Positions 4,681 to 22,017 of a stretch of 48,921 nt of DNA are shown in pieces. Every line of letters starts with the position of its first letter. Within the stretch, counting starts at the first letter, position 1. Under the pieces are notes generated by a model. The model did no database searches and had not been told where the DNA came from. It saw only the letters and a program-made list of their open reading frames with translations. Source of the stretch: an uncultured Microcaldota archaeon. Lineage in GTDB: Archaea > Micrarchaeota > Micrarchaeia > Micrarchaeales > Micrarchaeaceae. The position numbers and the translations under genes are program-made. Where the stretch lies: assembly GCA_903884115.1 (NCBI GenBank), contig CAISDH010000021.1, positions 1-48,921 of the forward strand, given 5' to 3'.

Positions 4681-4804
4681 CGCTGGAGGTGGGAATCGAA
4701 CCCACGGAGGCCCTATACGAGCCAAACAGCTTAGCGGGCTGCCGCCCTCTAGTGAGCTTTAGGTTGCAAAGCCTCCTAAAAGTTTACCACTAGGCGACTC
4801 CAGC
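4681..4804 (-). tRNA. tRNA, probably intron-containing; identity uncertain (possibly Cys-GCA)
   Basis: Read on the minus strand, GCTGGAG (4804-4798) pairs fully with CTCCAGC (4688-4682) as a 7-bp acceptor stem. GTGGG-TTCGATT-CCCAC is a perfect T arm. The 5' part carries a D-loop-like AGTGGTAA. The acceptor-to-acceptor length is 123 nt, about 50 too long, so an intron is likely. The best fold I found takes AGGCT and GGCCT as the anticodon stem with loop TTGCAA, which gives anticodon GCA (Cys) and a 50-nt intron. It needs a 12-nt D loop and a 2-nt variable region, and the discriminator is G73 where Cys tRNAs normally have U. I see no clean bulge-helix-bulge. The gene call is firm; intron limits and identity are not. 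No CCA is encoded. Confidence 0.75.
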
Positions 4805-4830
4805 ATGTGTATTGGTTTGTGCTGCAATGC

Positions 4831-4839
4831 TTTTAATAT
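4831..4839 (-). promoter_or_regulatory. TATA box for the tRNA gene
   Basis: On the minus strand ATATTAAAA sits about 27-35 bases upstream of the mature tRNA 5' end. It overlaps the 3' end of the SRP RNA gene, so the tRNA may have its own start site as well as readthrough from the SRP RNA. Confidence 0.5.
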
Positions 4840-5103
4840 GTGGCAGAAGTTGGTGTTGCACGGCCGAGCGCATGCAAAGTGCTGCGCATCTGCTTAGTCC
4901 TGTATCTTAAGAGCATGGCAAAATTGTGTTTAAGGTTGCTCCTTCCGGCCTGGCCTGGTTCGCATAATATGCCATCACCTAAGGCAGAACCTCAACGCTT
5001 AAGCGCAGTTCTGCAGGCGCACGACTGCACGCCATCAGCATTGGCCCGCCTAAAGGGATTTGCGGATGGGAAACCCTTAGCTTCCCGCCTATCTGCCACA
5101 TAT
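4836..5103 (-). ncRNA. ffs: Archaeal signal recognition particle 7S RNA
   Basis: On the minus strand the two ends ATATGTGGCAGA and TCTGCCACATAT pair over 12 bases (5103-5092 with 4847-4836), giving the closed terminal helix of archaeal SRP RNA. The diagnostic helix 8 lies at about 4965-4935. It has the GAACCAGGCCAGG strand, a GGAA tetraloop and the asymmetric-loop strand GGAGCAACC, which together form the SRP54-binding S domain. Near the 5' end, CTAAGGG pairs with CCCTTTAG as part of an Alu-domain hairpin. About 268 nt fits a compact archaeal 7S RNA. The RNA scaffolds SRP19 and SRP54 for co-translational membrane targeting. An open frame of about 95 codons over it on the plus strand is incidental. 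Confidence 0.9.
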
Positions 5104-20236: not shown

Positions 20237-20304
20237 AACATCCGCCTTTGTCTTATTATCTTCTGAAACAAAACCTTTTATACGGGCGCAGCATAGACGG
20301 TTAC

Positions 20305-20937
20305 GTGTACGTGTACCTTTTCGGCATAGTCACGGGGCTCTTCTCGAATTCCTACGCGACCATATCAAATCTCATAGGCAGTTACGGTTATTCTGCTGTC
20401 TTCGTGCTTATGCTTTTTGAAAGCTCTTCATTGCCTGTGCCGAGCGAGGTTGTGCTCCCGCTGGCGGGCCTGCTGGCATCCAAGGGCATATTGGAATTCT
20501 ATCTCGCATTTGCAGCTGCGCTTGCGGGAAGCATAGGCGGCCTTGCAGTTGACTATTTCATAGGCTACTATCTCGGCAAGGACATAGTGTACAAGCATCT
20601 GCGCGCCTTCCACATAAAGAAGAACGATCTCGATGCGTTTGACGTGTGGTTCGACAGGAATGCTGTCGTGGCAGTGTTCTTCTCAAGGCTTATACCTATT
20701 GCGAGGACTGTCATGAGTCTGCCAGCGGGCTTCGCGCGCATGCCTCTGAAGCAATTCTTTGCCTACTCTATACTGGGCTCGTTCATATGGGACATAGTGC
20801 TCATGTATTTCGGCTTCTACCTTCTTTCTGCAAGCAGCGCATCTATTGTGCTTGGATCGATAGGCGCGTTCGCGATAATCATCTATCTGATATACGCACT
20901 CTTCATGCGTCACATCAATTCTCATGGGAAAAGATAG
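20305..20937 (+). CDS. DedA/SNARE-associated family membrane protein
   Basis: About 210 residues, multi-pass. Family motifs are FESSSLPVPSEVVLPLAG, the central GSIGGLAVDYFIGYYLGKD, and FFSRLIPIARTVMSLPAGFARMPLKQF with the conserved Arg and Gly. DedA proteins are membrane transporters involved in lipid-carrier recycling and membrane homeostasis. In this genome the polyprenyl or dolichyl phosphate carrier used by the glycan cluster is a possible substrate (inference). The frame extends back to a TTG at 20248, but AACCTTTTATACGG at 20270-20283 looks like the TATA box, so I prefer GTG 20305 or 20311. Confidence 0.8.
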   Translation: MYVYLFGIVTGLFSNSYATISNLIGSYGYSAVFVLMLFESSSLPVPSEVVLPLAGLLASKGILEFYLAFAAALAGSIGGLAVDYFIGYYLGKDIVYKHLRAFHIKKNDLDAFDVWFDRNAVVAVFFSRLIPIARTVMSLPAGFARMPLKQFFAYSILGSFIWDIVLMYFGFYLLSASSASIVLGSIGAFAIIIYLIYALFMRHINSHGKR

Positions 20938-20958
20938 CTGCGATTCCAAACAACACAT

Positions 20959-20979
20959 GGTATTTATACTTATAAAGCA
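20959..20979 (+). promoter_or_regulatory. TATA box for the C/D sRNA
   Basis: Two overlapping TATA-like elements, GGTATTTATA and CTTATAAAG, end 12 bases before the C box. This is the right place for an archaeal promoter driving a short RNA gene. Confidence 0.55.
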
Positions 20980-20990
20980 AAGTAGCGTCT

Positions 20991-21045
20991 GTGATGATTG
21001 AGGTTATCGCTGAGCAATTGCTGTGAAGATAGGTAGGCGGGCTGA
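20991..21045 (+). ncRNA. C/D box sRNA guiding 2'-O-methylation
   Basis: All four boxes appear in order with archaeal spacing. C box GTGATGA (20991-20997), a 12-nt guide TTGAGGTTATCG, and D' box CTGA (21010-21013). Then a 9-nt linker, C' box GTGAAGA (21023-21029, one mismatch to consensus), a 12-nt guide TAGGTAGGCGGG, and D box CTGA (21042-21045). Both guides are exactly 12 nt, as in the dual-guide archaeal sRNPs built from L7Ae, Nop5 and fibrillarin. The methylated target base would pair with the fifth guide base upstream of each D box. A TATA box lies just upstream and hairpins follow. Targets, probably rRNA or tRNA, were not identified. Confidence 0.75.
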
Positions 21046-21061
21046 ATATGTTTTGTGCCCG

Positions 21062-21077
21062 CACGGATCAATCCGTG
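21062..21077 (+). terminator. Stem-loop downstream of the sRNA
   Basis: CACGGA and TCCGTG form a perfect 6-bp stem with loop TCAA. Just before it GCGGGC (21037-21042) can pair with GCCCGC (21057-21062). These compact hairpins 17 bases past the D box may end transcription or protect the RNA 3' end. Confidence 0.4.
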
Positions 21078-21097
21078 AACCTCATATGTTATTCGAT

Positions 21098-21113
21098 TGC
21101 AGCGTTCGCTGCA
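21098..21113. other. Palindromic stem-loop ahead of the nuclease promoter
   Basis: TGCAGCGTTCGCTGCA is a perfect palindrome that can form a hairpin with a GTTC or TT loop. It abuts the TATA-like CATATTTAAAG at 21113-21123 and could be an operator for the nuclease-alaS transcript. Confidence 0.4.
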
Positions 21114-21162
21114 CATATTTAAAGATGAACTAAGATTACTATTCGGTGTTCTCCTGAGCGTC

Positions 21163-22017
21163 TTGAGCGAGCTGCACAAGAGCAGCATAAGCATATCCGA
21201 CATATCCTCGCAGTACTGGTGCGAGCGCCAGATGGAGTACAACTACAAGTATGGCAAGCGCATAACCGAGCAGATAAAGGGCGGCAGGCAGATACACGAG
21301 GAGCTCGAGAACGAGACGAACGTACCTGTGATACTGGAGCCCAGGAGCTATGCCGACGCAATGTACAAGAACCTCTATGAGAGCTGCATGGCGCTTGATG
21401 CCCTCAAGAAGAACGGCAAGACAAGGGAGGTGAAGATCTACGGATCGGTCTCTGGCTACAAGCTGGTGGGCAAGATCGACGAGCTGCAGCTCAAGGACGG
21501 CCTAACCGTGATCAGGGAGGATAAGACGCGTGCCAGCTCGAAGATACCATCAGAATCGCAGATGCTCACGCACAAGATACAGGTGCTGCTATACCGGCGG
21601 CTTCTCGGCGACATCGTCGGGGGCCTCTACAACATCGAGAACTTCAGGAAGGCCTACGGAATTTCAATGCTGCGCCCCACCGACGAGTTCAAGCGCCAGA
21701 TGAGCGCGCTGGGCATCGCAGCTGCGCTGCAGAGCGTCGACGCGGTGGCAGGCAACTATTTCAAGGGCATGACGTCATTGCGCATAAGCGACACGCTCCA
21801 GCTGCGCTACATCGACCAGTTCACGGGCAATGAAATAAAGCTATATACGTTTCAATACAGCAATGAAGAAGCGCAGCAGATAGTCCAATACTCTCTGAAG
21901 TACTGGAACGGGGAGCGCGAATCCATGCCCGTTCCAGAGCAGGAAAGCTGGAAGTGCAACTACTGTGTGTTCTTCGGCAAAGAATGCAAGGTGTGGTCGC
22001 CGCAAAAGGTGCTTTGA
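21163..22017 (+). CDS. PD-(D/E)XK nuclease with Fe-S cluster motif (Cas4/Exo5-like)
   Basis: About 284 residues. YWCERQMEYNYKYG near the N-terminus supplies a first cysteine, and CNYCVFFGKEC near the C-terminus the other three, the spacing of a 4Fe-4S cluster in RecB-family Cas4/Exo5 nucleases. The catalytic core is visible as GKIDEL then VIREDKT (the D...E-x-K of PD-(D/E)XK), followed by HKIQVLLYRRLL with the motif QxxxY-like helix. Such enzymes are single-strand exonucleases. No cas genes are nearby, so a DNA repair or replication role is likelier than CRISPR. TTG 21163 is chosen because a TATA box at 21113-21126 overlaps the upstream ATG 21097. It overlaps alaS as TGATG. Confidence 0.75.
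   Translation: MSELHKSSISISDISSQYWCERQMEYNYKYGKRITEQIKGGRQIHEELENETNVPVILEPRSYADAMYKNLYESCMALDALKKNGKTREVKIYGSVSGYKLVGKIDELQLKDGLTVIREDKTRASSKIPSESQMLTHKIQVLLYRRLLGDIVGGLYNIENFRKAYGISMLRPTDEFKRQMSALGIAAALQSVDAVAGNYFKGMTSLRISDTLQLRYIDQFTGNEIKLYTFQYSNEEAQQIVQYSLKYWNGERESMPVPEQESWKCNYCVFFGKECKVWSPQKVL

Follow-up and report, generated by a model that had tools for sequence, protein, structure and literature searches.

The 55 bases at positions 20991-21045 of the forward strand of the analyzed window are, judged from their sequence, a real dual-guide C/D box sRNA of a known kind, of which they form a new and unusually well-conserved representative. The window, i.e., the whole stretch of 48,921 nucleotides that was analyzed, is one contig of a Micrarchaeota genome of 1.02 Mb in 57 contigs. 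Most probably, the sRNA directs the 2'-O-methylation of C1402 of the 16S rRNA (Cm1402) through box D and binds the 3' tail of the 16S through box D'. Our preferred explanation, to which we assign a probability of about 0.88, is a dual-guide sRNA with two roles, the methylation of C1402 and the chaperoning of the 3' end of the 16S. The nucleotide C1402 is 2'-O-methylated in bacteria, archaea, and eukaryotes, and a likely RNA guide for it is now identified in a phylum of tiny archaea.

Layout, promoter, and conservation of the element

The boxes C, D', C', and D, in this order and with two guides of exactly 12 nt, were read directly from the window sequence, as the preliminary description had stated. 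Box C (GTGATGA, 20991-20997) reads RTGATGA in all 84 distinct variants of the element. It is followed, on the same forward strand, by guide 1 (TTGAGGTTATCG, 12 nt, 20998-21009), box D' (CTGA, 21010-21013, read directly and invariant in our alignment A1), a D'-C' spacer of 9 nt (GCAATTGCT, 21014-21022) with a short GC...GC hairpin that is predicted to close the internal kink-turn, and box C' (GTGAAGA, 21023-21029), which differs from RUGAUGA by one change and reads RTGANGA in 84 of the 84 variants. Guide 2 (TAGGTAGGCGGG, 12 nt, 21030-21041) and box D (CTGA, 21042-21045) complete the element. A descriptor of the C/D layout, run on both strands of the window, had this element as its single match, and the same descriptor gave no match in 150 Markov-1 shuffles (7.3 Mb in total), in agreement with the earlier statement that such a spacing has low odds of arising at random. 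The mature sRNA would probably be around 55-62 nt long.

The predicted promoter of the sRNA is a TATA box (TTTATA, 20963-20968, forward strand) located at -28 from box C and conserved in relatives. Among 94 distinct upstream stretches of relatives, the motif TTWAWA peaks between -32 and -27 from box C (57 occurrences) and is rare elsewhere upstream, apart from a small group near -12. The conserved TATA box at -28 thus places the predicted transcription start at, or just before, box C. The preliminary description had set the TATA box 12 bases before the element: a TTATAAA does exist there (20970-20976), but the main conserved element is the TTTATA at -28.

To follow the element across the phylum, we combined several searches. 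A BLASTN search of positions 20940-21162 against 60 relatives gave matches in many genera, whose limits mostly fell at query positions 52-106, i.e., from box C to box D. A pattern made of box C, parts of guide 1, D', and C' matched 97 stretches in the genome collection. This pattern did not require a D box, and one was present after the second guide in 96 of the 97 hits; in these, the second guide was 12 nt long in all except one (11 nt). Both guides have 12 nt in 83 of the 84 distinct variants. A covariance model matched 241 of the 301 genomes of the phylum at E-values up to 0.01, of which the weakest could represent different C/D RNAs. In other families of the class, both guides are kept in the hits, which were inspected singly. 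The named carriers are Micrarchaeota and include Ca. Micrarchaeum A_DKE, Ca. Mancarchaeum, and Ca. Fermentimicrarchaeum limneticum. A few carriers are recorded under the title Marsarchaeota, and one under "uncultured archaeon". Since the complete genome of Ca. Micrarchaeum A_DKE contains the sRNA, the latter should be testable.

The D'-C' spacer starts and ends with GC in all variants, although for most of them the GC was required by the search pattern. The next inner pair of the spacer is complementary in 27 of 47 spacers, compared with 19.3 when shuffled, a modest covariation (0.0085 by shuffling). The C'/D' motif therefore has both the conserved boxes and the closing hairpin of a kink-turn or kink-loop.

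Two relatives depart from the common arrangement. In genome G001 (L027/L147), guide 1 is kept and guide 2 is replaced by an unrelated 11-nt sequence, an arrangement in which the helix 44 arm has been lost naturally. In G028 (L028, L260), there is a second C/D RNA besides the true orthologue, with different guides and the same D'-spacer-C' core, which suggests a duplicated sRNA gene.

The searches of Rfam at gathering score returned no match at the locus, and with a relaxed threshold only generic C/D families were found, far below cut-off. The best Rfam score was for sR2 (RF01139), which has the same box order and spacing as the window element. We rejected membership in this family, as the score was 23.5 bits against a gathering value of 42 and the guides failed to align. 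In the open-access literature, we found no paper on small RNAs of Micrarchaeota.

Pairing of the two guides with the 16S rRNA

The preliminary description had proposed to search the guide complements against the 16S, 23S, and tRNA genes, and this search revealed complementary 16S sites for both guides. The part of its refuting condition that concerns the lack of a complementary rRNA site is thereby contradicted. In the genome of the window, the 16S gene is in L030, with its sense on the minus strand, and the 23S gene is in L031. The best sense-strand 16S match of guide 2 is ACCGCCTGCCAA, at the start of helix 44, and its predicted target is CCGCCUGCC, E. coli positions 1399-1407. Over 29 genomes, helix 44 is the best column of the whole 16S for guide 2, with a mean score of 8.67 (z 4.8). 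The 23S was rejected as the target of either guide, because its best columns, computed over 11 genomes, are weaker than the 16S sites: 7.45 for guide 2, and 8.05 for guide 1, which has a mean score of 9.14 at its 16S site (see below). The fifth base of guide 2 before box D forms a Watson-Crick pair with C1402 (E. coli rrsH numbering). This nucleotide is m4Cm in E. coli and other bacteria and Cm1376 in P. abyssi (PMC7005279, Table 4), and its 18S equivalents are Cm1639 in yeast and Cm1703 in human (PMC7005279, Table 4; PMC11542601), as well as Cm1645 in Arabidopsis, with AtU43 (PMC11542601).

The guide and its target appear to change together. Positions 2-10 of guide 2 form 337 of 396 possible Watson-Crick pairs over 44 genomes, compared with a mean of 298.5 and a maximum of 318 in 5000 rounds where helix 44 sequences were reassigned, counts that are inflated by the kinship of the sequences. 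At 16S position 1406, a U is accompanied by guide A9 in 15 of 15 genomes and a C by a G in 25 of 29, and three genomes have A9 opposite C1406 with no Watson-Crick pair. At position 1404, all 30 genomes with a U have a guide A, and 8 of the 14 with a C have G7, A7 being retained opposite C1404 in the other six. Position 1400, normally a C, is a U in five genomes; four of these have guide A3 and the fifth keeps a G.U pair. The combination of U1400 and guide A is found in at least two different families. These compensatory changes at 1400, 1404, and 1406 would thus maintain the pairing of guide 2 across the 44 genomes. A count based on the tree, which is itself distorted by 16S introns, gives 2-3 well-supported independent pairs of coupled change per site and none to the contrary, too few for a sign test to reach significance. 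An A faces C1402, a mismatch, in 7 of the 84 guide 2 variants, including that of Fermentimicrarchaeum. In this genus and its relatives, C1402 is mismatched, yet the compensatory pairs further along are kept.

Two features of the 16S genes themselves deserve mention. The near-universal P-site base C1400 is a U (ACACACTGCC vs ACACACCGCC) in several Micrarchaeota 16S genes, namely L143, L086, G009, G197, and L105 (loci L225, L229, L275, L270, and L221, respectively). In addition, the 16S gene of the window's genome is around 500 bases longer than usual. The insert lies at L030 1960-2440 on the minus strand and contains an open frame of 172 aa with no Pfam match above cut-off; it is possibly an intron with a homing-endonuclease-like gene. 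Long 16S genes are also found in several relatives.

For guide 1, the sense-strand 16S match that scores best in the window's genome is AGATCACCTCAA, in the 3' tail that carries the anti-Shine-Dalgarno, with AGAUCACCUCAA as the predicted target. This tail is the best column of the whole 16S for guide 1 over 29 genomes (z 5.0). In the window's genome alone, the complementarity of guide 1 to the tail has a score of 10 of 12, which is no better than one tRNA match. That tRNA match (CGATGGACTCAA, score 10.0, L212), the best of the genome (G000) in a scan covering 30 of its 37 tRNAs, was rejected, because its position 5 is a G.U pair and guide 1 in the forms that it takes in other lineages would fail to pair there. 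Guide pairing is reportedly subject to a 10-nt limit, described by Yang et al. in 2016.

We examined the pairing patterns between guide 1 and the 16S tail in 45 genomes. The fifth base before D' faces C1533 (E. coli rrsH), and in the window's genome the two form a U x C mismatch. Positions 2, 3, 4, 6, and 8 of guide 1 are identical in 84 of 84 variants, while position 5 is an A in 36, a G in 47, and a T in one, the window's own; this contrast is partly built in, since positions 2-4 and 6 had been fixed in the search pattern. Among the BLAST and model hits, which are free of this bias, the contrast is the same, with two exceptions at positions 2-4 (G028 and G271). As C1533 is identical in all 45 16S sequences read, 37 of the 84 variants are unable to form the catalytic pair. 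This mismatch at the base to be methylated, here and in these variants, indicates that guide 1 probably binds the 16S tail without methylating it. One might instead suppose that both guides methylate in most lineages, at C1402 and C1533, and that the mismatch in the window is a recent decay without any binding role. The match at position 5 in 47 of the 84 variants speaks for this, but on the 16S tree position 5 has undergone seven or more changes, and the pairing around it is kept without the catalytic pair, so that we regard this alternative as unlikely. That the pairing is conserved while the catalytic base varies freely gives comparative support to a binding without methylation.

Proposed mode of action and comparison with known systems

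From the sequence, its conservation, the promoter, the complementarity, and the covariation, we infer the following course of events. The 55-nt element would be transcribed as a dual-guide C/D box sRNA, whose C/D and C'/D' kink-turns would be bound by L7Ae, Nop5, and fibrillarin. Guide 2 would pair with the 16S at E. coli positions 1399-1407 and bring C1402 to face the fifth base upstream of box D. Fibrillarin would accordingly 2'-O-methylate C1402, in the P-site/decoding region. Guide 1 would pair with the 3' tail (anti-Shine-Dalgarno), around 130 nt beyond the guide 2 site. Given the mismatch at its own target base in the window's genome and in many relatives, this arm would hold the tail and not modify it. 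The sRNA RNP would then be a folding chaperone for the 16S 3' end during 30S assembly. Fibrillarin and Nop5 genes are encoded in the genome (PF01269, 1.7e-79, and PF01798, 1.7e-48), and together with the conserved boxes, guides, and promoter and the 16S complementarity they support the initial identification of a dual-guide C/D box sRNA.

A more elaborate version of this scheme can be put forward tentatively. Guide 1 might be a catalytically silent clamp on the anti-Shine-Dalgarno tail of the pre-16S, with the RNP bridging 1399-1407 and the 3' end, so that 3'-end cleavage or mRNA binding would wait for the methylation of C1402. In that case, a modification guide would serve as an assembly checkpoint throughout Micrarchaeota. 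We find this conceivable and rather doubtful.

The element resembles other archaeal dual-guide C/D box sRNAs (PMC4644070; PMC7994747) in having C/D and C'/D' boxes with two guides of 12 nt, in its targets being rRNA, and in the target base lying five positions upstream of box D or D'. Dennis et al. (2015) described 16 dual-guide sRNAs out of 262 with one mismatched target base, in which both duplexes are believed to form, and chaperone roles were proposed for them (PMC4644070). The chaperone role of C/D guides has so far been proposed from single examples; the Micrarchaeota data fit this proposal and would add evolutionary evidence to it. Predictions in helix 44 are sparse in that study, with A1408 in two species and G1494 in one, and position 1402 is absent from its text (PMC4644070). 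In contrast to the archaeal sRNAs of Dennis et al., the Micrarchaeota RNA has a further site in the 16S 3' tail, and its conservation extends over a DPANN phylum.

Eukaryotic C/D snoRNAs perform the reaction proposed here, the 2'-O-methylation of the C1402-equivalent nucleotide (PMC11542601), whereas in the archaeal RNA the two guides are symmetric and each 12 nt long; the two are likened by target site, not by guide homology. The end product of bacterial RsmI/RsmH likewise includes a 2'-O-methyl on C1402, but these enzymes are stand-alone proteins that work without guide RNA (PMC5053481). Finally, TIGR-Tas systems have RNA guides beside nuclease-bearing proteins (PMC12045711), and the window sRNA likewise adjoins a nuclease gene. 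We rejected this assignment, since there is no array (the window has a single C/D unit, and the model matches once in the genome), the neighbouring nuclease matches only Exo5 and PDDEXK_1 in Pfam, and the targets are rRNA.

Genomic neighbourhood

The sRNA lies between a VTT-domain (DedA-like) gene (20248-20937) and the gene of an Exo5-family/PD-(D/E)XK nuclease, in line with the location between dedA and a nuclease gene given earlier. The longest frame of the nuclease spans 21097-22017 on the forward strand (PF09810, E 1.5e-47), and its true start is probably at about 21148-21163. A nuclease homologue is directly downstream on the same strand in 78 of 96 loci, its homology beginning no more than around 66 nt past box D. 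As the nuclease start falls 0-60 nt after box D in most relatives, the sRNA stands at or in the nuclease leader. Judging from this arrangement, the sRNA gene would often share its promoter and transcript with the nuclease.

This proximity, seen in 78 of the 96 loci, raises the alternative that the element mainly serves the nuclease mRNA, as a kink-turn in its leader through which L7Ae would regulate translation, a type of control that has been proposed in archaea (PMC5539422). However, in around a dozen loci the intact element has unrelated neighbours, such as genes for an integrase, a riboflavin synthase, a HIT-domain protein, or a transcription regulator (names from reading the sequence), which indicates that the sRNA is a gene of its own. 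Moreover, leader control does not need 12-nt guides complementary to the 16S with compensatory changes, and in the window around 100 nt separate the sRNA from the nuclease homology, an interval that contains two short perfect hairpins and, for the nuclease itself, a separate TATA-like site. We thus consider a leader function very improbable. Even less credible is the idea that guide 1 is a plain Shine-Dalgarno sequence: its GAGGTnATC is complementary to the 16S 3' end, but at least some 40 nt separate it from the nuclease start downstream, it always sits exactly between the C and D' boxes, and it has an AUC conserved past the Shine-Dalgarno core. A chance resemblance to C/D RNA, in favour of which we found nothing, can practically be dismissed, given the 7.3 Mb of shuffles with no match and the conservation through the phylum.

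Directly after box D, the window has inverted repeats (21037-21115): GCGGGC/GCCCGC, which overlaps guide 2, CACGGATCAATCCGTG, and TGCAGCGTTCGCTGCA. None was seen in the relatives read. They could alter processing or sequester guide 2. The larger fold of 20985-21120 has a stability just marginally above that of shuffles (z -1.66).

Elsewhere in the window, at 4681-5100 on the minus strand, a tRNA gene with a 124-base insert adjoins an SRP RNA. The latter scores best with the bacterial large SRP model, and a similar tRNA-SRP neighbourhood is found in L107.
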